Shown piece by piece: positions 4,054-37,342 of a DNA stretch of 64,000 nucleotides (position 1 is its first letter; the number at the start of each line of letters is the position of its first letter). Source of the DNA: an uncultured Clostridia bacterium (GTDB lineage Bacteria > Bacillota > Clostridia > Christensenellales > Borkfalkiaceae); the NCBI GenBank assembly GCA_944330115.1, contig CALVIN010000004.1, forward strand, positions 1 through 64,000. Reading direction: 5' to 3'. A model generated the notes under the pieces. That model saw nothing but the letters and a program-made list of their open reading frames with translations, did not search any database and was not told where the DNA came from. Position numbers and translations under genes: made by a program.

Positions 4054-4247
4054 CGGCAAAGGTATAGCTCACTTCGTCGCGGCCAACGCTTGCCCGATGG
4101 CGTTCGCTGAAAGCAAACGCCAATTTCGTAGCGTTGTCGCTCCTCTTCCCACAAAATTTCGCTGTGCGAATTTTTGTGGGAGTCCTTTTTTGTTTGGTAT
4201 AGTTCGCCATACGCTTTGCGCCTGCGGCGGCAAAGGTATAGCTCACT
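4054..4247. repeat. 20-bp direct repeat pair upstream of the relaxase
   Basis: CGGCAAAGGTATAGCTCACT occurs exactly at 4054-4073 and again at 4228-4247. A related partial copy (GGTATAGTTCGCCA) lies between them near 4197. The second copy is also the left half of a short palindrome (GGTATA/TATACC). Iterons of this kind flank relaxase-binding and autoregulatory regions in mobilizable elements. Confidence 0.75.
4148..4180. other. Candidate oriT inverted repeat
   Basis: CCCACAAAATTTCGC (4148-4162) and GCGAATTTTTGTGGG (4166-4180) form a near-perfect 15-bp hairpin with a 3-nt loop, 135 bp upstream of the relaxase start and between the two 20-bp direct repeats. MobV relaxases recognise a hairpin next to nic just upstream of their gene, so this is the best oriT candidate. 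The nic site itself cannot be placed. Confidence 0.5.
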
Positions 4248-14902: not shown

Positions 14903-15016
14903 ATGGATAAATTTCTGGTAATCGACACCGAAACGACGTGGAGTGATAAGGTTATGTCGATAGGAGCAGTCATAGCTGACTCATACGATATGCGCCCGAT
15001 TCTGCATAGTTTTATA
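14903..15016 (+). pseudogene. N-terminal fragment of a DEDD-type 3'-5' exonuclease
   Basis: The first about 38 codons read like the start of a proofreading-type exonuclease: F-L-V-I-D-T-E-T with the D-x-E metal motif, then V-M-S-I-G-A-V-I-A-D. At about 15016 the similarity stops and the DNA continues in another frame as a histidine kinase. The exonuclease body is absent, so this is a remnant at a deletion junction. Confidence 0.7.
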
Positions 15017-15881
15017 TCCGCTGTTGTATTTTTCTATGATAAGGCGCATAAAAAAGAAGGGCAAACTGCAAAGACTTGTTATGCTTTTGCCTTCTGCGCT
15101 GATACTCTTCGCCTCGGTATTCATAAATCTTTATTTTATATTCTTGCGTTGGGAATATCCGTATATTTCCGTCTATCATATCATTCTCTGTGTGATCGCG
15201 CTGTTCTTGCAGATGAGTCTCTCGCAAAACGGGCGGCTCACCGAGAAGAACGAATATATGGCACATCTCTTTGAGAAAGAGCAGATGTATCAGAAACTCT
15301 CCGAAGAGAGCATAAACGCGATAAATCTCAAGTGTCACGATATGAAGAAACAGCTCGAGACGATTTCAAAGATAAACTCGCCAGAGTCTCTCAAGGAGTA
15401 TAAAAACGAAATAGCTCAGTCGATAGCCGATTATGATATGCTTGCCGAAACGGGCAACAACGCCCTCGATATAGCCATAAGCGAACGCATACCCTTCTGC
15501 CGCAGCAGGAATATCAAATTTACATTCATGGCGGACGGAAAACTTGCAGACTTTATTTCTTCTCCCGATCTGTATTCTATGGCAGGCAATGCTCTCGACA
15601 ACTGCATCGAGGCGGTCATGAAGCTCGGCGAGGCTGAACGCGTCGTTACAATGAAGCTCTTTGAGGAGAACGGCATGGTCTGTATGCAGTTTGAAAATTA
15701 CTTCGACGGAAAACTTGCCATGCGCGACGGTTCGCCTGCAACGAGCAAGAGTGATACAATAAGCCACGGCTTCGGAATAAAGAGCATACGCATGATAGCA
15801 AAAAAATATAACGGTACGGTAACTATATCTTGTGAAGATAATATATTCGACCTGAATATACTTTTCCCTTCCTCCCATTAA
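15006..15881 (+). pseudogene. 5'-truncated GHKL sensor histidine kinase
   Basis: Retains the last membrane segments (about 60 residues), the phosphoacceptor block N-L-K-C-H-D-M-K-K-Q and a complete ATPase domain with N-box G-N-A-L-D-N-C-I-E-A-V-M and G-box H-G-F-G-I-K-S-I. Aligned to the intact kinase at 20903 it lacks roughly the first 160 residues. The frame is open only from 14976, the best start is a weak TTG at 15024, and no response regulator is adjacent. It lies just upstream of the first LytTR-type promoter, so it may be the relic of a second regulator pair for the same locus. Confidence 0.75.
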
Positions 15882-15937: not shown

Positions 15938-16007
15938 ACATTTCGTGCGCAGTCAAAAACATTTCGCGCCGCTTAGCGTTGACGATATGCCGCTCCCAAC
16001 TTATAAT
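15938..16007 (+). promoter_or_regulatory. LytTR-type promoter 1 (paired repeats, 21-bp period)
   Basis: ACATTTCG occurs at 15938-15945 and 15959-15966, exactly 21 bp apart, followed by TTGACG (15979-15984), a 17-bp spacer and TATAAT (16002-16007). Two 8-9 bp repeats separated by about 12 bp upstream of -35 is the binding layout of AgrA/ComE/LytR-family regulators. The same geometry recurs at 22318 and 26271. Confidence 0.85.
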
Positions 16008-16059
16008 GGTTGCATTCTCACAAAGAGAGCAAAATATTATCAGACTGGAGGGTAAAATA

Positions 16060-16716
16060 GTGAACAAAAAATTCAGGATTGCAACTGTTGCGCTCAGCAC
16101 CGTTGCGGCAGCTGGCTTGGCTATGGGCCTTGCGGCGTGCGAAGATACCGGCAGGAAAATTTCCGGCACATACACGGTGGAGTACAGCCAGGAATATGTT
16201 TCTACCCATATGAGTGAATTTGTCGGCGGCAAGGAGAGTTTCCTTACCGTGGGCCAGGCAGTTTCTTCCAATACGTTGGTGTTCAACGAGGACGGCACCT
16301 ATACTTATACCAAAGAAATGACGATGGCGCCATTCTCTTTTGAATTTTCGGTAGAGTTTACCGGCAAATACAGCGACGGCACTACGGCGTATGAAGGCAG
16401 CACGGAGTATTCTTACATCCTCAACGAACCCACCTCGGCGGAGTGGTCTCTCACTCCCGGTATGACCTGTATAGCGGGATGGGGGGATGGCGTCATCCAT
16501 TCGGATGACTGGCAGAGTCAGGCAGGCAAAAGTTATACCGGCGGACTCGGCGATGCCATCCAGCTCGGCGAAGCGGGTATGACCGATCCCGTTGCCGTAA
16601 TAGATTTCTTCCCCGCCGAAACTTTCGTCGCGGTGACTACGGATGGGATGACGGACAGTCAGCTCAGCGTCGAAGTCGCAATAGACGACGAAACAAAAAC
16701 CATCATATATCTTTGA
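16060..16716 (+). CDS. Lipoprotein paired with GH3 enzyme 1
   Basis: 218 residues starting at GTG 16060, placed by GGAGGG 8 nt upstream; the frame is open further upstream but that part contains the promoter. A Lys-rich n-region, hydrophobic core and lipobox L-A-A-C (Cys27) mark a membrane-anchored lipoprotein. The mature part is polar and beta-rich, with repeated D-G-T-Y-T-Y-like strands that resemble a small lipocalin-like or beta-barrel fold. It is the first gene after promoter 1 and lies 17 bp before the GH3 gene. It may bind substrate or present the enzyme; no catalytic motif is visible. Confidence 0.8.
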   Translation: MNKKFRIATVALSTVAAAGLAMGLAACEDTGRKISGTYTVEYSQEYVSTHMSEFVGGKESFLTVGQAVSSNTLVFNEDGTYTYTKEMTMAPFSFEFSVEFTGKYSDGTTAYEGSTEYSYILNEPTSAEWSLTPGMTCIAGWGDGVIHSDDWQSQAGKSYTGGLGDAIQLGEAGMTDPVAVIDFFPAETFVAVTTDGMTDSQLSVEVAIDDETKTIIYL

Positions 16717-16733
16717 TCTGACCGGAGGATGCA

Positions 16734-19688
16734 ATGGCGAAACTCGTAAATAAAAAGAAACATATAATAAAGTGGTCGTGTATAATGGCAGTCGTCGCGG
16801 CGGTGATCATAGTCGTCAACTGTCTGGCAATGTCGCCCACGTTTTACAGCATCATAACTATGGCTCTCGGCGGCGCAAAATATGAAAACGTCGGCGGAGG
16901 AGATGTGAATGCCGAATATTATAAATCCTCTTATGCGAGCCATGACGAGGCTATTGCCGCTACCGAAGAGAAGATCATTCCCGAGGCGGTAACCGAGGGC
17001 ATCGTTCTTCTCGAAAACAACGAAGAGCTGCTGCCGCTGTCGGAGGGTGCAAAAGTCAGTCTTTTCGGATATGATTCGATAAATCTTGTCGTCGGCGGCA
17101 CGGGTTCCGGGCAGTCGGTCGGCAAAGCCGATATGAAGACAGCGCTCGAAAGTGACGGGTTCGACGTCAACGATGACGTCTGGACGGCAAGTACAAACGG
17201 CGGCGGATATCGCGGCTCTGTGGATGTCGTTTTAAATACGGCTGATTTCAGACTGACGGAAATATCTTCCTCGGCATACGATGGCGCAAAGTCTACCTAC
17301 TCAAACTATGATACAGCCATATATATGATCGGGCGAATGGGTGGAGAGGCGTTCGATCTTCCCCGCGATATGGGCGAATGGCGGGGCGATTCCGGCAGGC
17401 ATTATCTTGAAATGACTTCCGGAGAGGAAGCGTTGCTCTCGTATATATGCGATAACTTCACAAAAGTCGTCGTCATAGTCAATACGGCGGGCAATTCGTT
17501 TGAGATGGATAGGGTAAATGCTATACTTGATGACGCAAAAGCGGGTAATTCTGCCTTTAAGTCGGCTACTCTCTTTATGGCAGGCGTGGGTTCGACGGGT
17601 GCAAACGGCGTTGGGGAAGTGCTCAACGGCACTGTTTCTCCGTCGGGGCATATGACCGATACCTGGCTGTGGGATATAACCAAAGATATTACCTATGCAA
17701 ACTCCGGGGATTTCCGTTACGGCGGTCTCGACAACGTCGCCTACGTCGAGTATGAAGAAGGCATCTATATGGGCTATCGTTATTATGAAACGATAGACGC
17801 CATAAAAGATGACGGAGGCGAGTGGTATTCATCCACCGTAAGTTATCCTTTCGGGTATGGCCTGAGTTATACCACTTTCTCGCAGACCATGAGCGACATC
17901 ACCGTAGAGGATGGTGCGCTCAAATTTGACGTCACGGTTACCAACACGGGCAATACGTATTCCGGCAAGGACGTCGTGCAGATCTATCAGACCGCGCCTT
18001 ATTACACTGGCGGCATCGAGAAGGCGGAGCGCGTGCTCGTCGATTTTGCAAAGACGGACAATATCGAGCCGGGCGGCAGCCGGACGGTTTCTTTCTCCAT
18101 TCCCGTGGAAGATCTCGCGTCGTATGACTATAAGACGGAAAAGGCATATGTGCTTGATGGCGGCGAATACACCATCATAGCGGGTAAAAATGCGCACGAG
18201 GCGTATGACAGCAAGACGGTGGAGCTTGAAAAAGTCGTCTATTCGGGCGACAACAAGCGCTCGTCAGATGCCGTAGCCGCAACCAATAAGTTTGACGATA
18301 TGAGCGAATATATGGAGAAGGCCACGACGCAGCTCACCCGCGCGGACAATTTCGCCGGCGGCGTTACCGCGCCTTCGGGGTCGGGAGATGACCTGCCCTC
18401 ATATCAGTCGGAATATCTTACGATGTCCCTATCCGAAGCGTTGACCTCCAAAGATCCGTCCGTAGATTATACATACGATCCTTCGGTTTACAGCGGCGGA
18501 GAACCTGTGTTTGGCGAGGCAAACGGGCTCGATCTCATCGAGCTGCGCGGTCTCGAATATGACGATCCCCTTTGGGAAGATCTGCTCGATCAGATGGATA
18601 TGACCGAGGTGCGCAGGATGATAGGTACGGGTGGTTATCAGACGCTCGGCGTCGATTCGATAAACAAGCCCGCCACGAAGGATCCGGATGGCCCCGCGGG
18701 GTTCACTTCATTCATGGATGCGTCCATATACGGTTCATCAATACCTGCGGCAACGCTCATTGCATGCACCTGGAATAAGGATCTTGCTGAAGATCTCGGC
18801 GAGGCCATCGGCGAAGAGGGCCTCACGGGCGGTTACAGCGGTTGGTATGCTCCCGCCACCAATATGCACCGTTACCCCCTGTCCGGCAGACATTTTGAGT
18901 ATTATTCGGAAGATCCCGTACTTGCAGGACACATGACGACGCAGATCGTTCAGGGTGCGGCATCCAAAGGCGTATATGCTTATGTCAAGCACTTTGCCAT
19001 CAATGAGCAGGAAACCAACCGCAAGACTAATAATAATGTCGCAACGTGGGCAAACGAGCAGGCCGTACGTGAAATTTATCTCAAGCCTTTTGAGATGTGC
19101 GTCAAGAATGCGACCATTCAGCTCAACTATCTTGCCTCCGAAACGGATGAGGACGGATTGACGATGTACACTATGCATACAAAGCAATTCCCTGCATGCA
19201 CCGCCATTATGAGCTCGTACAACCGAGTAGGTGCGATATGGGCGGGCGGAAGATACTCGCTTATGACTGGTGTGCTCCGCGACGAATGGGGGTTTGACGG
19301 CATGGTCGTCACCGACTATTTCAGTACTTCGGTTCAGGATATGAATCAGATGCTGCGCGCAGGCAACGATCTCGCTCTTACCACTATTGCAAGCAGTGTG
19401 CCTGTGACGACGGCGGAAGATAAAACAGTCTTGCGCAACGCTGCACACAATATATTCTATACCGTTGTCAATTCTAATGCGATGAACGGCTTTTTCAAGG
19501 GCACAAGTCAGGTTGCGCTTACTCCTGCGTGGGTCATCGTGTTGTATACGGTAACGGGTATATTGAGCGCTGCTTGGGTAGCATGGGGCGTAATACTCAT
19601 CCTTGACGGCACAGGCAAAACACATATCGTCTATCAATTGACGAATGAAGAGGTAAAGAAGGTAAAGAAGGATAAAAATAAGCAATAA
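16734..19688 (+). CDS. Domain-permuted GH3 glycosidase 1, anchored at both ends
   Basis: 984 residues. A membrane helix lies at about 12-34 and a second at about 938-962, so the enzyme is tethered by both ends with a short cytoplasmic Lys-rich tail. The domain order is reversed from normal GH3: the alpha/beta sandwich (from E-G-I-V-L-L-E-N-N, about 87) and the fibronectin-III-like part (from Y-P-F-G-Y-G-L-S-Y, about 370) precede the TIM barrel (about 610-920). The barrel carries the substrate motif K-H-F-A-I-N-E-Q-E-T-N-R and the likely nucleophile Asp861 in V-V-T-D-Y. GH3 enzymes cleave beta-glucosides, beta-xylosides or beta-GlcNAc; the specificity is not readable. GGAGG lies 5 nt before the ATG. 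Confidence 0.85.
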   Translation: MAKLVNKKKHIIKWSCIMAVVAAVIIVVNCLAMSPTFYSIITMALGGAKYENVGGGDVNAEYYKSSYASHDEAIAATEEKIIPEAVTEGIVLLENNEELLPLSEGAKVSLFGYDSINLVVGGTGSGQSVGKADMKTALESDGFDVNDDVWTASTNGGGYRGSVDVVLNTADFRLTEISSSAYDGAKSTYSNYDTAIYMIGRMGGEAFDLPRDMGEWRGDSGRHYLEMTSGEEALLSYICDNFTKVVVIVNTAGNSFEMDRVNAILDDAKAGNSAFKSATLFMAGVGSTGANGVGEVLNGTVSPSGHMTDTWLWDITKDITYANSGDFRYGGLDNVAYVEYEEGIYMGYRYYETIDAIKDDGGEWYSSTVSYPFGYGLSYTTFSQTMSDITVEDGALKFDVTVTNTGNTYSGKDVVQIYQTAPYYTGGIEKAERVLVDFAKTDNIEPGGSRTVSFSIPVEDLASYDYKTEKAYVLDGGEYTIIAGKNAHEAYDSKTVELEKVVYSGDNKRSSDAVAATNKFDDMSEYMEKATTQLTRADNFAGGVTAPSGSGDDLPSYQSEYLTMSLSEALTSKDPSVDYTYDPSVYSGGEPVFGEANGLDLIELRGLEYDDPLWEDLLDQMDMTEVRRMIGTGGYQTLGVDSINKPATKDPDGPAGFTSFMDASIYGSSIPAATLIACTWNKDLAEDLGEAIGEEGLTGGYSGWYAPATNMHRYPLSGRHFEYYSEDPVLAGHMTTQIVQGAASKGVYAYVKHFAINEQETNRKTNNNVATWANEQAVREIYLKPFEMCVKNATIQLNYLASETDEDGLTMYTMHTKQFPACTAIMSSYNRVGAIWAGGRYSLMTGVLRDEWGFDGMVVTDYFSTSVQDMNQMLRAGNDLALTTIASSVPVTTAEDKTVLRNAAHNIFYTVVNSNAMNGFFKGTSQVALTPAWVIVLYTVTGILSAAWVAWGVILILDGTGKTHIVYQLTNEEVKKVKKDKNKQ

Positions 19689-19732
19689 TACTGCAAAGTA
19701 TTGCGCTTAATCATTAGTTTTCTCCTTATGCA

Positions 19733-19762
19733 GCAGGGCAACGTATGTTGCCCTGCTATTTC
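19733..19762 (+). terminator. Intrinsic terminator after GH3 operon 1
   Basis: GCAGGGCAAC (19733-19742) pairs perfectly with GTTGCCCTGC (19747-19756) around GTAT; the tail TATTTCT is modest. Confidence 0.8.
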
Positions 19763-19982
19763 TATATCATTATTCGATTTATGATAAATATATAAATTGT
19801 TCATTTCGCTATATATTCTATTGGGTTTGATTTAGCGGAGGCGAAGGAACGATATAAAGTTCCTGTTAACCATACCACAAAGAATACCAAACATTTGCAC
19901 AAATACCGCGAACGCCCTTTTAGTGTACTTGATTTTTTATAATGTTAAACACCTTCGGGAACACAATATTTATTTTTCGGTA
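19763..19982. other. AT-rich intergenic stretch, no gene seen
   Basis: About 220 bases without an ORF or recognised repeat between the terminator of GH3 operon 1 and the regulator's promoter. A single CATTTCG near 19800 resembles half of the LytTR-type repeat, but no partner lies 21 bp away. Confidence 0.5.
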
Positions 19983-20011
19983 TTGCAAAACGGCGGAGGG
20001 TGTGGTATAAT
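19983..20011 (+). promoter_or_regulatory. Promoter of the LytTR regulator and its leader RNA
   Basis: TTGCAA (19983-19988), 17-bp spacer, TATAAT (20006-20011). A start at 20018, 7 nt after the -10 box, coincides with the first base of the leader's closing stem. Confidence 0.85.
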
Positions 20012-20017
20012 AACTTT

Positions 20018-20152
20018 GCTCTTCAATGGTATACGCGTAATAAGGTTACAACGGCATAGATGTACCCTTCTTTTTCCATATTACGCGGAATTGTAGAGCA
20101 ACTTATTAAGGGTAACATTTTTGCGGGCGCCCTTAAAACGGGGCGCTCTTTT
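20018..20152 (+). ncRNA. Structured leader RNA or small RNA ending in a terminator
   Basis: Nested helices: GCTCTTCAAT (20018-20027) with ATTGTAGAGC (20090-20099), one mismatch; CGCGTAATA (20034-20042) with TATTACGCG (20079-20087), perfect; AGGTTACA (20043-20050) with TGTACCCT (20061-20068), one mismatch. A terminator-like hairpin GCGCCC/GGGCGC (20127-20146) with TCTTTT follows. A later stretch, AAGGGTAACA (20108-20117), can compete for TGTACCCTT (20061-20069), so alternative folding is possible. The start codon is 42 bases after the terminator. It could be an attenuated leader or an independent RNA. I cannot assign it to a known family. Confidence 0.6.
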
Positions 20153-20193
20153 GTTACGGCGCGGAAATACGGACAATTCAAGGGGGGAAAATT

Positions 20194-20901
20194 ATGTATT
20201 CCATAGCACTGGTGGATGACGACAAGGAGGACAGGGAGACTCTTAAGGCGTACATCGCCAGATATTTCAATGAAAACGGCGGTGAGTATGCCGTGGCGGA
20301 ATTTGCCGACGGCAGCGAACTTTTAACAAACTATGCGCCCAAGTACGACATAGTTTTTCTGGACATCGACATGGAGAAGCTCAACGGCATGGCGGCCGCC
20401 AAAAAGATGCGCGCCACCGACGAGAGCACGGCCATAATTTTTGTCACCCGCATGGCAAAGTACGCCATAAAGGGGTATGAGGTGAGTGCCCTCGACTTTA
20501 TCGTAAAGCCGGTAGAGTATTACAGTTTTGCCTTAAAAATAAAGCGCGCCCTCGACTATTGCGACGCCAACCGCAAAAACTATGTGCATTTAAAGGTGAG
20601 CGGCAACGAGGTGTTCATCAACGAGGCCGATATAACGTATGTGGAAACGCTCGGCCACTACCTCATATATCACACAAAGAAGGGCGAGCATAAGATACTC
20701 GGCACGCTCAAATCGGCGGAGGAGGCGCTCTCGCCCGGCAACTTTGCGCTGTGCAACCGCTGCTATCTTGTAAATCTGCGCTATGTGGTATCAATAGAGG
20801 GCAACATTCTCTCGCTCGGGGACGAAGAGCTTGTTATAAGCCGCTACAAGCGCAAATCTTTTATAGAGGCGCTGGCGGGGTATTGGGGCAACCGCGGATA
20901 A
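20194..20901 (+). CDS. LytTR-family response regulator
   Basis: 235 residues. The receiver domain (1 to about 120) has the acidic cluster D8-D9-D10, the phosphoacceptor Asp57 in F-L-D-I-D-M, and the K-P switch Lys in V-K-P-V-E. The LytTR DNA-binding domain follows (about 135-230): Y-V-E-T-L-G-H-Y, F-A-L-C-N-R-C-Y-L-V-N-L-R-Y-V and I-S-R-Y-K-R. It is the AgrA-like type that binds pairs of 9-bp repeats. The kinase gene begins one base after its stop, so the two are co-translated. Phased repeats at three nearby promoters are the obvious targets (inference). AGGGGGG lies just before the ATG. Confidence 0.93.
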   Translation: MYSIALVDDDKEDRETLKAYIARYFNENGGEYAVAEFADGSELLTNYAPKYDIVFLDIDMEKLNGMAAAKKMRATDESTAIIFVTRMAKYAIKGYEVSALDFIVKPVEYYSFALKIKRALDYCDANRKNYVHLKVSGNEVFINEADITYVETLGHYLIYHTKKGEHKILGTLKSAEEALSPGNFALCNRCYLVNLRYVVSIEGNILSLGDEELVISRYKRKSFIEALAGYWGNRG

Positions 20902-20902
20902 T

Positions 20903-22249
20903 ATGCAGACATTTATAAATTATTTTTTCTCGTTCAAGTTTTTCCCCAGCCTTGTTGTGGCAACGCTGCTGTTTGCCATATATATGCCCAAGCGCAAGCT
21001 GTTCTGGCTGCGGCTGATACTCTCCTTTTTGGCGCTGAGTATCCTGTCGGTATTTATGTGGCGCTTTGCAAAGAGCGACATCGTGGCCGCCGCGCTTGGC
21101 AACTTTGCCTATGTGCTGTGCGACGTCACCTTCTTTTTTATGATAGCCGCCTTTTTGTGCTTCAACTTCAAGTGTTCATTTATAGAGGCGGTGTTGTACG
21201 ATTCCACCGGCTGGTGCGTGGAGCACATAGCCAATTCGCTCACCGTTATATTCGCGCTGCTTTTGAATATGGGGGTGGAAACTTTATATTTTAATTACAG
21301 CACGGAGTATTTCGTGCTCACCGTCCTCGTCTATCTTATAGTATACATGGCGGCGGCCATAGCGTTCTGGGCCTTCTGCCGCGGCAGCACCATAAAGCTC
21401 AACAAAAAGAGGGTGCTGCTGCCCTCCGTGCTGGTGCTGTTCGTAACTGCGCTGATGGGCGTATACACGCCGATAGCCGACGTGCAGCCGAACGTAATGA
21501 TAATATTAAAGTTGTTTGCCATAGTGTGCTGCATAACCAGCCTCTGCCTTGCTCTCAGCATGTTCGAGGCGGGCAAATACCGCTACGAGCTCGACGCGAT
21601 AGAGGTTATCGACCGCAAGCGCAGGGAGCAGTATGAAATAGCCAAAGACACGATTGACGCAGTAAACGTAAAGTGCCACGACTTAAAAAAGATGATAGGC
21701 TCGGTACTCGGGCAGTACAAAGTCATGACGGAGGAGGAGCTGAAAAATTTAAGCAACAAGATATCCATATACGACGCCATAGTAAAGACGGGCAACGAGG
21801 CGCTCGATCTCATACTCACCGAAAAAAGTCTGTATTGCGAGCAGAACGATATAAAGCTAACAATAATCGCCGACGGCGACGGGCTGGGATTTATCTCCGA
21901 CGCCGACACCTATTCGCTGTTCGGCAACATACTCGACAACGCCGTGGAGGCGGTGATGAAGCTCGAGCCGCACCGCCGCACGATAACGCTCAACGTGCGC
22001 ACGGTGGGCGGCATGCTCGTCGTGCACGAAGAAAATTATTGTGCCGGCGAGGTGCGCTTTGTAAACGGCACCCCCGTCACCTCCAAGGGCGACACAAACG
22101 AACACGGCTACGGCGTTTTGAGCATACGGCACATAGCCGAAAAATACGGCGGCGGTGTGAACATAACTGTGAAAGACGGCATATTTTCAATGAACGTGCT
22201 CATGCTGATACCGCAGGGTGCGGCGGGCGGCGCGGCCGCCCGAAAGTGA
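20903..22249 (+). CDS. GHKL sensor histidine kinase (AgrC-like)
   Basis: 448 residues. About six or seven membrane helices in residues 1-220, with few extracytoplasmic residues, then a dimerisation/phosphoacceptor segment N-V-K-C-H-D-L-K-K, and an ATPase domain with N-box G-N-I-L-D-N-A-V-E-A-V and G-box H-G-Y-G-V-L-S-I-R. The polytopic sensor without a large outer domain matches peptide or small-ligand sensing kinases. No agrD- or agrB-like gene is visible near it, so the signal is unknown. The truncated kinase at 15006 is a close relative. Confidence 0.92.
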   Translation: MQTFINYFFSFKFFPSLVVATLLFAIYMPKRKLFWLRLILSFLALSILSVFMWRFAKSDIVAAALGNFAYVLCDVTFFFMIAAFLCFNFKCSFIEAVLYDSTGWCVEHIANSLTVIFALLLNMGVETLYFNYSTEYFVLTVLVYLIVYMAAAIAFWAFCRGSTIKLNKKRVLLPSVLVLFVTALMGVYTPIADVQPNVMIILKLFAIVCCITSLCLALSMFEAGKYRYELDAIEVIDRKRREQYEIAKDTIDAVNVKCHDLKKMIGSVLGQYKVMTEEELKNLSNKISIYDAIVKTGNEALDLILTEKSLYCEQNDIKLTIIADGDGLGFISDADTYSLFGNILDNAVEAVMKLEPHRRTITLNVRTVGGMLVVHEENYCAGEVRFVNGTPVTSKGDTNEHGYGVLSIRHIAEKYGGGVNITVKDGIFSMNVLMLIPQGAAGGAAARK

Positions 22250-22288
22250 GCCGTTTAGCATGGCGGCATAAGTTTTATTAAAAGTATA

Positions 22289-22317
22289 AAAAGGGTCTCC
22301 CGCGAGGAGGCCCTTTT
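22289..22317 (+). terminator. Intrinsic terminator after the two-component operon
   Basis: AAAAGGGTCTCC pairs with GGAGGCCCTTTT (one G-T pair) around a CGCGA loop. The next LytTR-type promoter begins immediately after it. Confidence 0.85.
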
Positions 22318-22385
22318 GCTATTCGCGAATATGTGCAGGCTATTCGGGCATAGCCCCTTGTTTTTTTGCAAGGCTCTCCTATAAT
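22318..22385 (+). promoter_or_regulatory. LytTR-type promoter 2 (paired repeats, 21-bp period)
   Basis: GCTATTCG at 22318-22325 and 22339-22346, 21 bp apart. The first copy lies in the palindrome ATTCGCGAAT. Then TTGTTT (22358-22363), a 16-bp spacer and TATAAT (22380-22385). The start of repeat 2 is 41 bp from the -10 box, against 43 and 42 bp at promoters 1 and 3. Confidence 0.88.
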
Positions 22386-22429
22386 GGGGGTAACTTACAT
22401 AACATTTTCAATTTAAGGAGGAACAATGT

Positions 22430-23638
22430 ATGAAAAAACTCAAAAAGTGCCTTTTCGGCGCTCTTGCCGTCGCCATGGCGGCAGCGGCTGTATGCGGTCT
22501 TGCCGCGTGCGGCGAACCCGACGCCCCCGATACTCCGGACCCGGGCGACGAAACTGTGGGGATCTCCTATCAGTTCACCGGTCACTATACCGATTCCACC
22601 CTTACGGGCATGGGATTTGACTATTATGTGCTACTCAATCTCATGGACGACGGCACCGTTGCGGGCAGCGGCTACAACAATCTCACGATGGACAGCTCGC
22701 CCTATGCCGAAAATGCCGGTTTTTCTGAAAAGTGGTATAAGGGCAGCTGGGAAGATACCCAAAACGAGGAGGGGCTCGACTGCATCGAGCTAAAAGTCAG
22801 CTACGATACCGACGCCGTAAACTCCATGACGGGCGGCCAGCTCGTCGGCAACTTCGAGTATCAGCTCTATAAAGATTCCTCGGGCAACATAAAGTTCACG
22901 CTCGACGTGCCCTTTGCATCCGGCCGCCAGACCGAGGTTACGGGCAGTTCGTCGGTAAAGTATGAAACGCTCGACGAGTTCATTCAGGGCAACCTCTATC
23001 AGTTCACCGAACCCGAATATTTGGTCGTGTTCCAGACTGCCGAGGGTAGCGAGGACGCCGCAAGGCTCTATTGCCAGGACGACGGCACCGCGCTGTTCTA
23101 CACCGCCACGCAGGACCCCGCTACCGGCGAAGAAAAGTACCGCATAAATTCCACCTGGCAGTGGAGCTGCACGGGCGATAAATTTACCATAATACAAAGC
23201 GAAACATCATCTATAGAGGCCGCCGTTTCCGGTAATTCTGCTTCCTTTGAGTATGAGTATTCACTCATGGGCTATGAACCTACCGTATATAACCTCTCCT
23301 GTAACGATATATCTGCTCTTGCCGAAAACGGCGGCATTGCTCCTCCCGCAGAGGTGACGACTCTCGCCACCTTCGTCAGCGAGGACGGCAGCAGCACTGT
23401 AACGGTATATTCCAACGGCACTGCCACCATGAGCGCCTACGGCGGCATGCTCAGCCCCGAATTTGTATGGGAGTATAACGGCAGCCAGCTAACCTTTACC
23501 GACGCCGAAAATTCGCAAAAGGTGCACACCGCCGTAATATCGGGCAGCTCGGCTACGCTTACATACAACGATACCCTCGCGGGCAACACCATTCAGATAG
23601 TTCTCTCCTGCGACGACGTTTCGGCCTTGATAAAGTGA
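22430..23638 (+). CDS. Lipoprotein of the GH78 operon
   Basis: 402 residues with a signal peptide and lipobox L-A-A-C (Cys27), then a Pro/Asp linker (D-A-P-D-T-P-D-P-G). The mature part starts I-S-Y-Q-F-T-G and contains an A-S-F-E-Y-E-Y...G-Y/D-x-T-V-Y block and a C-x-D-x-S-A segment. The lipoprotein at 30641 shares these (I-S-Y-Q-F-S-G, A-S-F-E-Y-E-Y, C-A-D-Y-S-A), so the two are paralogues. No catalytic motif is visible; a beta-rich carbohydrate-binding or scaffold role is possible. AAGGAGG precedes the ATG. It is followed after 10 bp by the GH78-like gene. Confidence 0.8.
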   Translation: MKKLKKCLFGALAVAMAAAAVCGLAACGEPDAPDTPDPGDETVGISYQFTGHYTDSTLTGMGFDYYVLLNLMDDGTVAGSGYNNLTMDSSPYAENAGFSEKWYKGSWEDTQNEEGLDCIELKVSYDTDAVNSMTGGQLVGNFEYQLYKDSSGNIKFTLDVPFASGRQTEVTGSSSVKYETLDEFIQGNLYQFTEPEYLVVFQTAEGSEDAARLYCQDDGTALFYTATQDPATGEEKYRINSTWQWSCTGDKFTIIQSETSSIEAAVSGNSASFEYEYSLMGYEPTVYNLSCNDISALAENGGIAPPAEVTTLATFVSEDGSSTVTVYSNGTATMSAYGGMLSPEFVWEYNGSQLTFTDAENSQKVHTAVISGSSATLTYNDTLAGNTIQIVLSCDDVSALIK

Positions 23639-23648
23639 CGGGGAGAGT

Positions 23649-26045
23649 ATGAAAAAGATAATATTCAAGATACTCGCGCTGGCTATGTGCGCGACGGTGG
23701 GGCTTACTGTAGCCGCAGGCTGCGACAACGGCAAAACGGATACCCCGCCCGATGATCCGGGCGGCCCGGTGCTCCCCGACGACCCCGACCCCGAACCCGT
23801 CGACAGGAGCGACCTGCCCTATCTTTCCTCCCTGGAGGAGTATAAAAAGGACGCCTCGGAGTGGGGAGATGCAAAGTGGATATGGGCGGACAGGACTACT
23901 TCAAACTCATACGTCGCTTTCCGCAAGACGTTCACACTCTCGTCGGTGCCCCAAAGCGCCGTGGCCGATATCGCCGCGGAGAGCAAGTACTATCTGTGGG
24001 TAAACGGCGAGCTCGCCGTTATAGACGGCGCTTCCAAGCGCGGCGCAACGCCCTACGACGGCTTCTACGAGCAGATCGAGCTTGCCGACTACCTCGTGCA
24101 GGGTGAAAATACCCTTGTGATACTCGTCTCCTACAACGGCAGGGGCGGCAATTCCAGCGTCGATCCGGGCGCGGCCGGCCTGCTGTTCGAAATGGAGGCG
24201 GGGGACGTCACCGTCGTATCCGACCAGACTTTCAAGGCCAACAGGCTTACGGCATACCGCAACCAGGGGCTGCTCGGCGCCGATTGGCCCAACTATTCGC
24301 AGTCGTCGATGCTTGCCGAGTGGAACGTGTATTACGACGCCCGCCAGAGCGTGGGCGATTACACCTCTCCCGAGTTTGACGATTCCTCGTGGAGCGCGGC
24401 AACGGTGGTGGCGGAGCCCGGCGAACAGCCCTTCAACGATATCTACCTTTCGGTGATCCCTCCCATGGAGTTCGACGAGGAATATACCTTTCTCGAGAGC
24501 GAGTACATAGGCAAAAAGTTTACCGTAGATACCGTGATTACGGTGGACCTGCCCGAAAATATGCAGTTCAGCCCCTACTTTGAACTTTCGGCCGAAAGCG
24601 CGGGGCTGCGCTTTACCTACTACACAAACACGCTTACCAGCCAGGAGATAGATTCCTTCCGCGACGACTACGTCACCGTGGAGGGGGAGCAGACCTACGA
24701 AAGCCTGCCCTGGCGCACGGGCTCGCAACTCATCATAGAGGTGCCCGCGGGCATAACGTTTACAAAGATAGGCTTCCGCAGGAGCGGCTACGCCTCCGAG
24801 CGCGCGGGCAAATTCGTCAGCGACAACGAGGATGTGAACACGCTCTGGGAAAAGGCGGTCAATACTCTGCTCATCTGCATGCGCGATACCTACATGGACT
24901 GCCCCGAGCGCGAGCGTTCGCCATACATAGGCGACGCCGCCAACCAGATCTCCGAAACTTTCTACGCCCTCGACAGCTCTTCGTGGGCGATGACAAAGAA
25001 GACTATACTCAACATCATCGGCTGGACAAAGACCGACGGCTGCATACCGCTGCGTTCCCCCAGCGAGGTGACCAACGAGTGCCCCGCGCAGACGCTCAAC
25101 TTCCTCGTTTCGGCATACGAATATTACCTGTATACGGGCGATAGCGAAACTATGGAAAAATTCTATCCCGTGGCAGTAGATTATTTAAAGTTGTGGGAGC
25201 TTGAAGAGGACGGCAGCATAGTTTACCGCAACGGCACCTTCCAGTGGGTAGACTGGGGCAGCGGGCAGGATAACGAAGTGATACAGAATTGCTGGTATTA
25301 CTACGCGCTCGACTGCACGCATAAACTTGCGCTGGGATTGGGAATAGATACCGACGAACAGTTCTTCACCCAAAGGCTCGCCTCTGTAAAGGCCGGTTTT
25401 GATAAGTTCAGAACGGAAAGCGGCTTTACTTCGGGCACATCTTACGACGACAGGGCAAACGCCATGGCGGTCGTAAGCGGCCTCGCCGAAGAGAGCGACT
25501 ATCCCGCCGTGCTCAAAGTGCTCACGTCCACATACAACGCCAGCCCCTACATGGAGAAGTTTGTGGAGGAGGCGCTCTGCATCATGGGCGAGTACGGAGC
25601 ATGCATAAACCGCATGCTCTCCCGCTACGGCGAGATGATAGATGACAAAGAGTCTACCCTGTGGGAGCTGTGGAGCAAGGCCGAGGGCACCATAAACCAC
25701 GGCTGGTCGGGCGGTTCGCTCACCGTGCTCTCAAAATACTTCGGCGGCGTTGTACCAAACGATGCCGGCTACCAAAGCTACTCGATACGCTTCAACGACT
25801 ATTTCGGCGCGCTCTCGGTAAACGTGGTAACGCCCAAGGGTGATATAAGCTATTCGCTTTCCACGTCTGCAGACGGCGTAAAAAACATAGATCTCTCCAC
25901 GATATCGGCAGAAGGCTTGCTGTATATCCCCTCAGAATGGGGCACGGTGAGCATAAGCGGCGCGGATTGCGAAACGTCGGTTGAGGGTGGCTGCACGGTG
26001 GTGGCCGTAACGGGCGGCAGCTGTGTTATTACCGTAACTCCTTAA
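23649..26045 (+). CDS. GH78-like alpha-L-rhamnosidase lipoprotein
   Basis: 798 residues with a lipobox A-A-G-C (Cys25) and a Pro/Asp-rich linker. An N-terminal beta-sandwich part (A-K-W-I-W-A-D, Y-V-A-F-R-K-T-F, Y-Y-L-W-V-N-G) is followed by an (alpha/alpha)6 barrel with D417-C-P-E-R-E-R and G-D-A, the signature around the general acid of GH78 enzymes, then N-H-G-W-S-G-G-S and a C-terminal beta-sandwich. GH78 inverts alpha-L-rhamnosides; related inverting families with similar domains cannot be excluded. Being surface-lipidated suggests action on external polysaccharide or glycosides. Confidence 0.85.
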   Translation: MKKIIFKILALAMCATVGLTVAAGCDNGKTDTPPDDPGGPVLPDDPDPEPVDRSDLPYLSSLEEYKKDASEWGDAKWIWADRTTSNSYVAFRKTFTLSSVPQSAVADIAAESKYYLWVNGELAVIDGASKRGATPYDGFYEQIELADYLVQGENTLVILVSYNGRGGNSSVDPGAAGLLFEMEAGDVTVVSDQTFKANRLTAYRNQGLLGADWPNYSQSSMLAEWNVYYDARQSVGDYTSPEFDDSSWSAATVVAEPGEQPFNDIYLSVIPPMEFDEEYTFLESEYIGKKFTVDTVITVDLPENMQFSPYFELSAESAGLRFTYYTNTLTSQEIDSFRDDYVTVEGEQTYESLPWRTGSQLIIEVPAGITFTKIGFRRSGYASERAGKFVSDNEDVNTLWEKAVNTLLICMRDTYMDCPERERSPYIGDAANQISETFYALDSSSWAMTKKTILNIIGWTKTDGCIPLRSPSEVTNECPAQTLNFLVSAYEYYLYTGDSETMEKFYPVAVDYLKLWELEEDGSIVYRNGTFQWVDWGSGQDNEVIQNCWYYYALDCTHKLALGLGIDTDEQFFTQRLASVKAGFDKFRTESGFTSGTSYDDRANAMAVVSGLAEESDYPAVLKVLTSTYNASPYMEKFVEEALCIMGEYGACINRMLSRYGEMIDDKESTLWELWSKAEGTINHGWSGGSLTVLSKYFGGVVPNDAGYQSYSIRFNDYFGALSVNVVTPKGDISYSLSTSADGVKNIDLSTISAEGLLYIPSEWGTVSISGADCETSVEGGCTVVAVTGGSCVITVTP

Positions 26046-26122
26046 ATTGACGCGGCACAGGCCGCAAACAACAGTTTCAGACGCCCTATCCTTGATTCGG
26101 GTGTTCTGCATATTCCGCGTAT

Positions 26123-26160
26123 GGGAAGGCTGCGGCTTGCCGCAGTCTTCCCCTTTTTTG
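26123..26160 (+). terminator. Intrinsic terminator after the GH78 operon
   Basis: GGGAAG and CTTCCC enclose an inner GCGG/CCGC stem, and six T follow. Confidence 0.9.
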
Positions 26161-26270
26161 TACTTGTGAAAAAATGCGCGAAGTAATAGAGCGTATTTAA
26201 CAAAAACGGCGCCCTGCTGCCGAGCGCTGCAAACAACAGGTGTTAATTGCGGCAAAACGTGCCCCGAAGT

Positions 26271-26339
26271 GCTATTCGCGAATACTGAAAGGCTATTCGT
26301 TCATATGGTATTGATTTATAAATTTTGCCTTTCTATAAT
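26271..26339 (+). promoter_or_regulatory. LytTR-type promoter 3 (paired repeats, 21-bp period)
   Basis: GCTATTCG at 26271-26278 and 26292-26299, 21 bp apart; the first lies in the palindrome ATTCGCGAAT as at promoter 2. TTGATT (26311-26316), 17-bp spacer, TATAAT (26334-26339). It would drive the lipoprotein/GH3 genes from 26380 onward. Confidence 0.88.
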
Positions 26340-26379
26340 GTGCTTACAAATAAATTTTTCACAATTTAAGGAGGATATT

Positions 26380-27015
26380 ATGAAACTTAAAAAACTTGTA
26401 ATTGCAACCGCATGTGCGGCTGCGGCTGTTGTGGCGGCGGCGTGCCTTGCCGGCTGCTCGGGCGGCGCTCCCGCATCTACGGGCACCTACCTTTCGGAGA
26501 ATGAACTCTCATATTCTAACATGCTGCCTGCATACAACTACTTCTTTGCAACTTCCACCACGCAGCAGCTCGATACCTACAGCGACAATACCTATTGTCT
26601 CACCATAACCACAAGCACCTATTCAAATATCAGCCTCGGCCCCGACGTCGCCACCGGCGAGGAGACCTGGAACGACCGCGGCCAGACGATAACCCGCTAC
26701 TACGGCGCATGCACGGTAGAGACGGATCCCTCCGACGACACTCTCTCCTTTATAACCATATCCTCTCCCGATCGCGTAGTGTTTGCCTCCTTCGGCTCTG
26801 TAACTCTCGATACCGGCAACTGGACCGACGCCATGACCGAAGCGGCCACGACGCTCGCATCCAACCCTCAGGGCGGTCTCGGCATACAGCTTGAAGAGGG
26901 CGAAACCGTCACCGCCGAGCTCCTTCTCGAGGCAAAGGTGGGCGAGTTTCCCGCAGACGGGATAGAGATAATGGTAAATCTCAACGCATGTTCGTTCGAA
27001 CAGGTAAGCTGGTAA
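26380..27015 (+). CDS. Lipoprotein paired with GH3 enzyme 2
   Basis: 211 residues from the ATG at 26380 (AAGGAGG, 6-nt spacing); the longer upstream frame covers the promoter. Signal peptide with lipobox L-A-G-C (Cys27). The mature part is Ser/Thr-rich and beta-rich, with no catalytic motif. Like the lipoprotein at 16060 it is the first gene of its operon and directly precedes a GH3 gene, which supports a shared role, although direct sequence similarity between them is weak. Confidence 0.78.
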   Translation: MKLKKLVIATACAAAAVVAAACLAGCSGGAPASTGTYLSENELSYSNMLPAYNYFFATSTTQQLDTYSDNTYCLTITTSTYSNISLGPDVATGEETWNDRGQTITRYYGACTVETDPSDDTLSFITISSPDRVVFASFGSVTLDTGNWTDAMTEAATTLASNPQGGLGIQLEEGETVTAELLLEAKVGEFPADGIEIMVNLNACSFEQVSW

Positions 27016-27029
27016 CGGACCCCGCACGG

Positions 27030-27048
27030 GCGCCGCGCAATGCGGCGC
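27030..27048 (+). other. GC-rich intercistronic hairpin without T-run
   Basis: GCGCCGC (27030-27036) and GCGGCGC (27042-27048) with a 5-nt loop, between lipoprotein and GH3 genes. Similar hairpins sit at 30578, 31790 and 34953. Confidence 0.6.
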
Positions 27049-27075
27049 TCATGCTCAATCGATAAGGAGCTGAAA

Positions 27076-30000
27076 ATGAGAGATAACAAATTCTTAAAGG
27101 TCTTCAAATCGGTCGTAGGCAAGGTCAACATATGGCGCGGCGCCGCCGCGGTATTCGGCCTGCTCATGGCCGTATTCCTCGTCCTTACCAATCTGGGCTG
27201 GCGCTATGAGGGCTTCGTAAACGATGCACTTGGCGTCGTCCCTCCCGTCATAGAGGGCGATGAAGACACCATGGTATATACCTCGCAGTTCGGCGAGCTC
27301 AATGCCGAAAACAGCCAAAAGCTCATCGAGGCCGAAAACGATTTCAATATACGCGCAATGGAGGAGGGCGCCGTTATGCTCCGCAACGAGGACAACGCGC
27401 TGCCCCTCGCGCAGAACGAAAGGAGCATAACGCTCTTCGGCAACTCGGTAAAGAACCCCGTATACGCCACCAACGGCGGCGGCTCTTCCTTCAAGGCCTC
27501 CCGCGGCGGCGGGCTTCTGGATGCGTTCACGGCGGCGGGCTTCGACGTGAACATGACTATGTATAACGCCTATATGAACAGCAACGTGAACAGAGTTTCC
27601 TCTGCCACGCCCGGGCTTTCGGATATAGGCGAGGTGGGCAGAGATTTCTATACCTCCGAGCTCACAAATTCCTACGCAAACGACTATAACGACGTGGCCG
27701 TCGTTCTGCTCACCCGCTACGGCGGCGAGGGCGTCGACCTCGACTACAACAAGGACGCCGACGGCGTGCCCCTGCTCTCCTTCCACCAGGAGGAGGCCGA
27801 TCTTCTCAAGATGATAAACGATTCGGGCAAGTTCGGCAAAATAGTGGTGCTCGTAAACAGCCCGTTCGCAATGGATCTGCAGTGGATAGAGGACGAGCAG
27901 TACGGCGTCGATGCCTGCATAGTATTCGGCGCGGCGGGCGACGTCGGCTTCAAGGGCATAGCCAACCTTTTGACGGGCGCGGCCGACCCCTCCGGTCACC
28001 TTGCCGATACGTATGCCGCCGATTCGCTCTCCGCTCCCGCAATGCGCAACTTCGGCGACTTCACCTTTACCAACCACAGCACCCAGTACGAAAATAAGTA
28101 TGTCATATACGCCGAGGATATCTACGTCGGCTACAAGTACTACGAAACGCGCTATCACGACCAGGTGCTCGGCATAAACAACGCCGCGGGCTCCGCGGGC
28201 GTGTATGCAAGCACGAACAACAGTTGGAACTATGCCGATGAAATGGCATACACCTTCGGCTACGGCCTCTCATACACCAACTTCACGCAGGAGCTGCTCT
28301 CGGTGGAGTGGGACAGGGAAAACGGTCAGGTGGTGGCAAAGGTCAACGTCACCAACGAGGGCAACCCCGAATCGTCCTACACGGGCGCTTCCAAGAGCGT
28401 CGTGCAGCTGTACGCAAGCCTGCCCTATGAGGACGGCCAGGCCGAAAAGTCGGCCATTCAGATGATAGGCTTTGCCAAGACCGGGCCCCTCGAAGTAGGC
28501 GAAAGCCAGGAGGTCACCGTAACCGCCGACGACTATCTGTTTGCTACTTACGACGACGAGGCGGTGAACGGTGCCGATACCACAAAGACGGGCTGCTACA
28601 TCTTCGATGAGGGCGACTACTACTTTGCCATAGGCGACAACGCGCACGACGCGCTCAACAATGTAATGGCGGCCGAATACGGCGAGGAAGTTTCGGGCAA
28701 GCTCACCGATGAAAAGGGCGCTGCCGTCGGCGGCGACGCCAACAAGGCCGTCATGATAAACCTTGCGGAATACGATAATACAACTTACGCCCGCTCCGAG
28801 GCGACGGGAGAGGTGGTATCCAATCAGTTTGAAGAGATAGATTTCAACTACTTCACTGAAAATACCGTTACCTACCTCACCCGCAGCGACTGGAACACCT
28901 ATCCCAAGTCGTACACGGGGCTGGCCGTCACCGAGGAGCTAAGGCAGCTTCTCATAGGCGAGACTTATACAAGGCCCGCCGATTCGCCCGACGCCAACGA
29001 CGACGTGGTCACGGGCGCCGACAACGACATAGAGTTCGTGGAGATGAAGGACGTCGCCTACGACGACGATGAAATGTGGGATGCCTTCATCGACCAGCTC
29101 TCCATAACCGAGCTCGGCACCATCATGGGCGAGACGATGGGCAACGAAAAGATAAATTCTGTAAACAAGCCCGCAAACTCCAATACCGACGGCCCCAAGG
29201 GTCTGGGCGCAAGCTATAACAAGGGCAACGGCGAGGGCATAACCCTCTACGTCGACCAGGTGGTAATGGCGTGCACGTGGAATCTCGACCTGCTCGCCGA
29301 GCGCGGCACGCTGTTCGCCGAGGATGCGCTGTATGCCGGCTATTCGATGATATTCGGCCCGGGCGCCGACTGGCACAGAACTGCCTACTCGGGCAGGAAT
29401 TCCGAATATTACTCCGAGGACGCCAACATGTCCTATCTCTGCGGCGCCGCTCAGGTAAAGACCATGCAGGAGGGCGGCCTGCTCTCTGCAATAAAGCACT
29501 TTGTGGGCAACGATCAGGAGACCAACCGCCACGGCGTGGCAACCTTCGCCGATGAGCAGGGCTTCCGCCAGGGTTCGCTCCGCTGCTTCGAGGGCGCTCT
29601 TCGCGACGATGTGGGCGGCGCGCTCGCCACCATGACCTGCTTCAACCGTGTGGGCGCTACCGCAGGCGCGGCAAGCGAGGCCATACTCACGCAGGTGCTC
29701 CGCAACGAATGGGGCTTCAAGGGCGTAAACCTCACCGACTCTTCGAGGGACGCGGCCGACTACGTTCACACCGAAGAGTGCGTTATGGCGGGCACCGACA
29801 TGTTCAACAACGATAACGGCAGAACGAGCGAGCTCACCAGAATAACCAGGCAGAACGGCGACGGCACCATACTCGAAAAGATGAAGGAGGCCAACAAGCA
29901 CTTCTACTACGCATACTCGCGCTCCAACCTCGTAAACGGCCTTGCGGTCGGCGTTGAAGTGCCCGACTTCGTTCCCTGGTGGCAGACGGCGCTCATCGCA

Positions 30001-30099
30001 TTGGATATAACTCTCGGCGTGCTCACCGTTGTATGCGCCGCGGCGTTCGTAACGGGCAGCGTGTTCGTGCTTATCGGCAAAAAGGGAGGTGCAAAATAA
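27076..30099 (+). CDS. Domain-permuted GH3 glycosidase 2, anchored at both ends
   Basis: 1007 residues from the ATG at 27076, chosen because AAGGAG lies 6 nt upstream. Membrane helices at about 17-38 and 972-1000. The order is again alpha/beta sandwich (E-E-G-A-V-M-L-R-N-E, about 95), FnIII-like part (Y-T-F-G-Y-G-L-S-Y), then TIM barrel with K-H-F-V-G-N-D-Q-E-T-N-R and nucleophile Asp888 in N-L-T-D-S. A large acidic insertion region (about 520-680) separates the halves. The stop overlaps the next start (TAATG). Reverse-order GH3 enzymes are known from rumen clostridia such as Butyrivibrio; a double membrane anchor is not something I know for them. Confidence 0.85.
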   Translation: MRDNKFLKVFKSVVGKVNIWRGAAAVFGLLMAVFLVLTNLGWRYEGFVNDALGVVPPVIEGDEDTMVYTSQFGELNAENSQKLIEAENDFNIRAMEEGAVMLRNEDNALPLAQNERSITLFGNSVKNPVYATNGGGSSFKASRGGGLLDAFTAAGFDVNMTMYNAYMNSNVNRVSSATPGLSDIGEVGRDFYTSELTNSYANDYNDVAVVLLTRYGGEGVDLDYNKDADGVPLLSFHQEEADLLKMINDSGKFGKIVVLVNSPFAMDLQWIEDEQYGVDACIVFGAAGDVGFKGIANLLTGAADPSGHLADTYAADSLSAPAMRNFGDFTFTNHSTQYENKYVIYAEDIYVGYKYYETRYHDQVLGINNAAGSAGVYASTNNSWNYADEMAYTFGYGLSYTNFTQELLSVEWDRENGQVVAKVNVTNEGNPESSYTGASKSVVQLYASLPYEDGQAEKSAIQMIGFAKTGPLEVGESQEVTVTADDYLFATYDDEAVNGADTTKTGCYIFDEGDYYFAIGDNAHDALNNVMAAEYGEEVSGKLTDEKGAAVGGDANKAVMINLAEYDNTTYARSEATGEVVSNQFEEIDFNYFTENTVTYLTRSDWNTYPKSYTGLAVTEELRQLLIGETYTRPADSPDANDDVVTGADNDIEFVEMKDVAYDDDEMWDAFIDQLSITELGTIMGETMGNEKINSVNKPANSNTDGPKGLGASYNKGNGEGITLYVDQVVMACTWNLDLLAERGTLFAEDALYAGYSMIFGPGADWHRTAYSGRNSEYYSEDANMSYLCGAAQVKTMQEGGLLSAIKHFVGNDQETNRHGVATFADEQGFRQGSLRCFEGALRDDVGGALATMTCFNRVGATAGAASEAILTQVLRNEWGFKGVNLTDSSRDAADYVHTEECVMAGTDMFNNDNGRTSELTRITRQNGDGTILEKMKEANKHFYYAYSRSNLVNGLAVGVEVPDFVPWWQTALIALDITLGVLTVVCAAAFVTGSVFVLIGKKGGAK

Positions 30100-36238: not shown

Positions 36239-37342
36239 ATGGAAACAAGTGGATATGCTTTTATTAGTTACAGTTCTAAAAATTACATAGAAGCTGAAAC
36301 AATGCGCGCGATTTTAAATGAATCGGGAATTAAAACATGGATGGCGCCGGGTGATATACCTGTGGGGAAAAAGTATGCCCAGGTAATTAATCGTGCTATT
36401 AAGAATTGTTCATGTTTTGTCCTGATACTATCGGATGAAGCACAGTCCTCTGTATGGGTTCCAAAGGAAATCGATAGGGCGGTACACTATAAAAAACCAA
36501 TTTTCCCTGTTAAAATCAAGGAAACTTCTCTGAACGATGAATTTGAATTTTATCTCAGCACCGATCAGCTCGTTTTAATAAAAAAGCTGGAAAAGTCAAA
36601 TGAAATATTGAAAAAAATGTTGGCTAGCATATCTGCATGCGTGCATGAAAGTGCTGCGTGCAACATTAGCAAAGACGAAAATAAAAATGAAGATAAAGAG
36701 GAAGAGAAAAACAAAGCGCAGATTCTTGACTGTAAATCCGATGTCGTAGATTCAGCAGATTTTGCTAATTACTTTTATTTTCATATCAATTTTAGTGACA
36801 CGGGCGGATCTTTATTAGTAGTTTCACCTGAAAGTAGATCTGGCAAGATTTTAAAGGCTGAGATTACGGAACAAATTTGGTCAGAATTTGTTAAACTTGT
36901 AAAACAATTATTGTCTACGGCACTCGGAATTGATACAGATGAGGTGTCCGTTAAGCGTTACGCTGATTGTCCGTTGGGAACCTATGAGTGCGCGCCGGCA
37001 GGCAGTTTGTCCTATGATAAAGTGAAAAATGAAATTTATTTTTCATGTGCTTGTTTGGGCAGCAATAGTCATTTCATACATAATGGAGTAGTGTTTCAAG
37101 TATACGAACGTCAATTTGAAGTTTGCTTTTTTAAGGATGAAGACTTTGCATTTAAATTTATGCCCAAATATTCTACATTCAGTGATTTCGGCGTGGATGA
37201 ATCAAAGATGTATGAGCTTGGAACGCAGCTTATTTCATTTGCTATGCAAAAGAAAGATTTGCATATAGCAAAACAAATGCAAAAAAGAGTGTATGATGAT
37301 TACAGTGGTGGCTTTTATATAAATTTTATAGACAAAGAATAG
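36239..37342 (+). CDS. TIR-domain protein
   Basis: 367 residues. The TIR domain (about 5-120) has Y-A-F-I-S-Y-S-S-K-N, the B-B loop region W-M-A-P-G-D-I-P-V-G-K, and Glu77 in W-V-P-K-E-I-D, at the position of the catalytic Glu of NAD-cleaving TIRs. An acidic Lys/Glu linker (about 140-160) leads to a C-terminal domain of about 200 residues that I do not recognise; it could be the sensor. The gene is AT-rich compared with the glycosidase locus. It converges with the TIR/STAND/HD gene. Bacterial TIR proteins of this type mostly act in anti-phage abortive responses. Confidence 0.85.
   Translation: METSGYAFISYSSKNYIEAETMRAILNESGIKTWMAPGDIPVGKKYAQVINRAIKNCSCFVLILSDEAQSSVWVPKEIDRAVHYKKPIFPVKIKETSLNDEFEFYLSTDQLVLIKKLEKSNEILKKMLASISACVHESAACNISKDENKNEDKEEEKNKAQILDCKSDVVDSADFANYFYFHINFSDTGGSLLVVSPESRSGKILKAEITEQIWSEFVKLVKQLLSTALGIDTDEVSVKRYADCPLGTYECAPAGSLSYDKVKNEIYFSCACLGSNSHFIHNGVVFQVYERQFEVCFFKDEDFAFKFMPKYSTFSDFGVDESKMYELGTQLISFAMQKKDLHIAKQMQKRVYDDYSGGFYINFIDKE

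Follow-up and report, generated by a model that had tools for sequence, protein, structure and literature searches.

A candidate LytTR-GHKL two-component unit with paired-repeat promoters before surface glycosidase operons, and the probable remnant of a paralogous cassette, in an uncultured Clostridia bacterium

LytTR-type response regulators have been described in the vicinity of glycan-degrading enzymes in other bacteria. In Butyrivibrio proteoclasticus B316, PULs 7, 21, and 33 place LytTR regulators beside secreted GH3 enzymes that have a C-terminal membrane helix (PMC2914790), and the Roseburia gpPUL Ros-7 includes a LytTR-kinase pair inside a glycan locus (PMC5320581). In the promoters that LytTR proteins recognize, the spacing of the repeats and their distance to the -35 box are conserved, whereas the repeat itself is not (PMC6193735, PMC4847170); in published examples, the spacers measure 12 bp and the distance to the -35 box tends to be 10 bp (PMC6193735). 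The YpdA/YpdB system of Escherichia coli binds direct repeats of GGCATTTCAT (PMC4847170), close in sequence to site 1 described below.

The window analyzed here (the whole 64-kb stretch of DNA, from an uncultured Clostridia bacterium) contains three pairs of direct repeats, each followed by a promoter and by an operon that starts with a predicted lipoprotein gene (Table 1). At all three sites, two 9-bp repeats set 21 bp apart are followed, after 10 to 11 bp, by a -35 box and, after another 16 to 17 bp, by TATAAT, with 43, 41, and 42 bp from the start of repeat 2 to the start of TATAAT at sites 1, 2, and 3, respectively. The six half-sites, their 21-bp spacing, and a TATAAT 41 to 43 bp after repeat 2 are all found where the preliminary description of this DNA had placed them, and the three promoters fit the published two-turn LytTR layout that it had invoked. 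It had also called the repeats identical, which holds within each pair and between sites 2 and 3; the half-site of site 1 agrees with theirs at 5 of 8 bases, sharing the TTCG core and the C at position 2 and differing at the other three (positions 1, 3, and 4). Neither strand of the window has a further exact 8-bp pair at 21 bp with a perfect TATAAT in phase, and the same search returned zero pairs in 60 Markov-simulated sequences of 64 kb that reproduce the window's dinucleotide frequencies. Random occurrence across the genome, which the preliminary description had proposed to check, is not what a search of all 1.77 Mb revealed: RCWWTTCG-N13-RCWWTTCG has 5 matches, of which two fall within long open reading frames and the others are sites 1 to 3. 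All three repeat pairs are real and not a product of chance.

Table 1. Features of the repeat-pair block (window coordinates)
Feature	Coordinates	Strand	Details
First 36 codons of DnaQ-like (DTETTWSDKVMSIGAVIAD) gene, cut at the putative deletion junction	14903..15010	+	homology ends at residue 36
Truncated orphan GHKL histidine kinase (cassette 1 remnant)	15011..15881	+	PF14501 3.4e-25
Repeat pair 1 (LytTR-type, direct)	15938..15967	+	ACATTTCGT-N12-ACATTTCGC; 8-bp half-site ACATTTCG at 15938/15959
Promoter 1	15979..16007	+	TTGACG-17-TATAAT
Predicted lipoprotein (LAAC lipobox)	16060..16716	+	no Pfam family
GH3 glycosidase	16734..19688	+	Pfam order GH3_C, Fn3-like, GH3_N; hydrophobic segment at each end (read from sequence)
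LytTR response regulator (receiver + LytTR)	20194..20901	+	PF00072 1.6e-17, PF04397 6.5e-16, both over curated cut-offs
GHKL histidine kinase	20903..22249	+	PF14501 2.4e-21; several N-terminal hydrophobic segments
Repeat pair 2 (LytTR-type, direct)	22318..22347	+	GCTATTCGC-N12-GCTATTCGG; 8-bp half-site GCTATTCG at 22318/22339
Promoter 2	22358..22385	+	TTGTTT-16-TATAAT
Predicted lipoprotein	22430..23638	+	ortholog in L033 (49-50%); paralog in C6 cassette (28%)
Secreted GH78-type alpha-L-rhamnosidase with lipobox	23649..26045	+	PF17389 9.3e-31
Repeat pair 3 (LytTR-type, direct)	26271..26300	+	GCTATTCGC-N12-GCTATTCGT; 8-bp half-site GCTATTCG at 26271/26292
Promoter 3	26311..26339	+	TTGATT-17-TATAAT
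Predicted lipoprotein	26380..27015	+	ortholog in L033 (58%)
GH3 glycosidase	27040..30099	+	Pfam order GH3_C, Fn3-like, GH3_N; terminal hydrophobic segments

The LytTR regulator and the kinase, a member of the GHKL group, do sit among the sites as originally reported, between sites 1 and 2. The proposed targets also bear scrutiny: by Pfam matches and sequence features, surface or secreted GH3 and GH78 enzymes are encoded behind the lipoproteins. The GH3 enzymes of the site 1 and site 3 operons have the same inverted domain order, GH3_C, Fn3, GH3_N. For the 22430 lipoprotein, fold matches were discarded as meaningless, the predicted structure being of low confidence (pLDDT 56). Among the proteins scanned between 13317 and 37342, there was no match to transporter families. 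The block, with its enzymes and a regulator, lies outside the gpPUL definition (a polysaccharide-degrading enzyme, a transport system, and a regulator in one locus), because no transporter was recognized.

With B. proteoclasticus B316, this locus has in common a LytTR response regulator near a secreted GH3 enzyme with a C-terminal membrane segment. However, the B. proteoclasticus evidence consists of three cases of gene content only, whereas here there are candidate DNA sites, a lipoprotein gene in the first position, and many cassettes per genome. Thus, LytTR regulators beside secreted GH3 enzymes are already known; what is added is the candidate sites and a cassette expansion of which no description was found in the open-access literature searched. 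Ros-7 likewise combines a LytTR regulator and a kinase in a glycan locus but has transporters and AraC, none of which was recognized here. YpdA/YpdB is a LytS/LytTR-type pair, too, but with a different target (yhjX) and from a different lineage. The layout of the repeats, their distance to the -35 box, and the low conservation of the repeat itself are shared with the LytTR Regulatory Systems HdrRM and BrsRM (PMC6193735), in which the LytTR protein stands alone and its partner is a non-kinase membrane inhibitor; in contrast, a GHKL histidine kinase is the partner here and the regulator contains a receiver domain, which places the pair outside the LytTR Regulatory System (LRS) class.

The promoters of AgrA, ComE, and PlnC resemble those of the window in having 9-bp direct repeats with a 12-bp spacer upstream of a sigma-70-type promoter, and these regulators also have GHKL kinase partners. 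Their targets are peptide or bacteriocin genes, whereas here they are glycosidase operons, and no AgrB was found. The kinase, with its membrane-embedded sensor, GHKL domain, and no recognized extracellular ligand domain, follows the plan of AgrC and ComD, so that one could imagine an agr-like peptide quorum-sensing system that happens to drive glycosidases. We consider this improbable, given that the genome (95.6% complete) has no match to AgrB (PF04647), a search for which the positive controls were weak, the control genomes barely testing the family, and that no peptide gene was seen beside the regulator-kinase pair in an inspection that covered short frames at most unsystematically. The use outside quorum sensing that had been put forward for this locus is plausible, with no AgrB found, but not new, given the B. 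proteoclasticus precedent (PMC2914790).

Sites 2 and 3 recur in relatives. L033 (the same as G015) encodes an ortholog of the regulator with 63% identity, followed by both operons in the same order, and the type of repeat, its phase, and the -10 box match those of the window; its GCTATTCG pairs are at 4220 (the equivalent of site 2) and 8046 (the equivalent of site 3), before the orthologous operons. In G037 (L229), a third genome, the pair is also retained and lies between the rhamnosidase gene and that of the lipoprotein that follows it (the equivalent of site 3). The 9-12-9 layout at 9 to 11 bp from the -35 box is thus seen twice in L033 and once in L229, so that the hallmarks of LytTR direct-repeat promoters (9- to 11-bp repeats, an 11- to 13-bp spacer, and about 10 bp to the -35 box) are present at the three sites of the window and at three more in relatives. 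The GCTATTCG core is nearly invariant in five sites from three genomes, and across 61 genomes of the genus, the remaining matches to the GCTATTCG pattern that were examined all lack a TATAAT in phase. By inference, the conservation of the GCTATTCG sites together with the operons supports direct control by the 20194 regulator, and sites 2 and 3 appear to form a single conserved regulon. As a counterpoint, the regulator and the sites of L033 could co-occur merely through joint inheritance of the whole block. At both sites 2 and 3, the first half-site is embedded in a 12-bp palindrome, TATTCGCGAATA (22320-22331 and 26273-26284), which is not conserved, because the relatives have TATTCGCGTATG there. 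No GCTATTCG pair that might indicate autoregulation was seen in the sequence upstream of the 20194 gene.

In principle, any of the six further LytTR regulators of this genome, which encodes seven, might instead read the sites, alone or together and with cross-talk between systems, and the orphan kinase near site 1 could still phosphorylate one of them. This appears very improbable: sites 2 and 3 adjoin the 20194 regulator and travel with its ortholog, and the other cassettes of the same genome have different pairs, for example, ACACTTTG in L025 and GAAGTCAAA/TAAGGCAAA in L024. We consider it likely that 20194-30099 constitutes a two-component glycan-response unit that reads sites 2 and 3 and that site 1 is the output half of a paralogous cassette broken by a deletion. 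Beyond the observed genes, layout, and conservation of sites with operons, we infer phosphotransfer, binding, and activation, drawing on established LytTR biology, and also the nature of the signal. In such a unit, the membrane GHKL kinase (20903-22249) would respond to a signal and phosphorylate the LytTR regulator (20194-20901), two monomers of which would bind cooperatively on one DNA face, two turns apart, to GCTATTCG-N13-GCTATTCG, with the -35 box about 10 bp farther downstream. The regulator would contact RNA polymerase near the -35 region and activate the operons for a lipoprotein and the GH78 rhamnosidase (22430-26045) and for a lipoprotein and a GH3 enzyme (26380-30099). Since the kinase (20903-22249) has no recognized extracellular domain, its signal may be a released sugar, a lipoprotein partner, or a peptide.

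Site 1 has a different setting. It follows a kinase remnant of 285 residues (15011-15881), which aligns only from about positions 143 to 195 onward of full-length paralogs of about 440 to 480 amino acids. About 150 residues are missing from the N terminus of this remnant, and no gene for a LytTR regulator adjoins it. Immediately before the remnant, residues 1 to 36 encoded at 14903-15010 are 81 to 83% identical to intact genes of about 183 to 191 amino acids in G025 and G027 and 67% identical to one in G003; the DnaQ-like name of this fragment rests on a sequence motif, as Pfam has no match. The exonuclease-like similarity stops at about 15010, where the kinase similarity starts, which puts the junction at about 15000-15015; the segment 14903-15015 has the appearance of a gene fusion scar, in which the head of an exonuclease-like gene is joined to the middle of a kinase. 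In the simplest reading of these alignments, a deletion took out the remainder of the exonuclease-like gene together with the regulator gene and the 5' part of the kinase gene and left site 1 and its operon, and site 1 is most readily understood as a promoter that belonged to a paralogous cassette, now broken. The operon at 16060-19688 would then be the output half of this second cassette, with the deletion ends joined at about 15010, and site 1 was most likely once read by the lost regulator and may now be orphaned or taken over by another LytTR protein. Searches for an intact cassette 1 among 100 relatives by kinase, GH3 enzyme, and repeat found paralogs only. A ACATTTCG/CCATTTCG pair spaced by 21 bp, likewise with a phased TATAAT, occurs in L248 (G037) at about 1501-1529; it precedes the gene for a GHKL kinase of more distant relationship and is possibly a LytTR-controlled kinase promoter.

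The preliminary description had joined all three promoters in a single regulon. For sites 2 and 3, conserved in two other genomes, this view stands; extended to site 1, it would require the 20194 regulator to bind the ACATTTCG pair as well and to have captured the orphaned 16060 operon. Because ACATTTCG equals GCTATTCG at 5 of 8 bases, including TTCG, one regulator might tolerate both; LytTR proteins do tolerate degenerate repeats (PMC6193735, PMC4847170), the layout, the phase, the TTCG core, and the C at position 2 are common to all sites, and the lone kinase's own regulator is gone, so another may act. However, positions 1, 3, and 4 differ at site 1 while the GCTATTCG core hardly varies elsewhere, G015, although it retains the regulator ortholog, yielded no ACATTTCG pair, and site 1 comes directly after the remnant of its own, different kinase. 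Capture of site 1 by the 20194 regulator is therefore unlikely, and we retain the reading of site 1 as part of a separate, broken cassette.

Several side observations concern the surroundings of the block. A conserved non-coding element (20012-20152, plus strand), followed by a terminator, lies directly upstream of the regulator gene. It is present in 10 of 101 genomes searched, usually as a single copy and adjoining different genes; its outer and inner stems vary in sequence with pairing kept in most of 8 genomes, its loop, ACAACGGCATAG-TGTA, is conserved, and loop-to-tail pairing is possible. With no match in an Rfam search, it is a candidate new structured RNA. A TIR-domain protein with weak ThsB-like similarity (36239-37342) and a type I restriction R subunit (10378-13317) are possible defense genes near the cassette, and 41023-43173 encodes a protein that consists mostly of TPR repeats.

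The two cassettes of the window belong to a large family in this genus. Besides its seven LytTR regulators, this genome has eight GHKL kinase matches above the cut-off, and several of the 100 relatives searched have about ten or more regulator-like matches. In a collection of 119 regulator-kinase pairs, the cassette order is LytTR regulator, GHKL kinase, and then often a gene for a lipoprotein or membrane-anchored protein. Repeats behind the kinase (118 regions) are most strongly enriched at a spacing of 21 bp (23 regions at a threshold of at least 8/9 versus 1 to 12 at other spacings; 21 versus 0 to 10 with a -10 box required), and so are those ahead of the regulator (127 regions; 22 versus 1 to 14); several thresholds were used in these scans, and it is the enrichment, not the individual sites, that should be trusted. 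The repeats differ among cassettes: an orthologous group that includes the C10 cassette of this genome has AAGTCAAA/AAGGCAAA and another group has AAGGTTACG, both unlike those of the window. In two G091 cassettes, L156 and L136, the code found ahead of the regulator recurs behind the kinase; such agreement occurs in 2 of 10 testable cassettes, a sample too small to generalize from. These differences suggest that each orthologous group or system has its own private DNA code, an idea that rests on a minority of cassettes, because about 80% of the paralogous ones show no clear pair in the scan.

This work defines a candidate DNA site for a two-component system of the LytTR type whose probable targets are surface glycosidases and which comes from a lineage of Clostridia known mainly through metagenome assemblies, and it illustrates how a switch may decay, with the regulator lost and the promoter and enzyme operon left behind. 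Since dozens of paralogous regulator-site pairs could be collected, the poorly understood DNA specificity of LytTR domains could become directly testable. We tentatively entertain the possibility that insulated LytTR-GHKL switches form a large and rapidly diverging array in this genus, numbering ten or more in some of its genomes, and that every switch is connected to a lipoprotein-glycosidase operon of its own through a private repeat code phased at 21 bp. If true, such an array would provide a natural set from which to read the LytTR DNA-recognition code and would represent a Gram-positive counterpart to the expanded sensor arrays of Bacteroides PULs.
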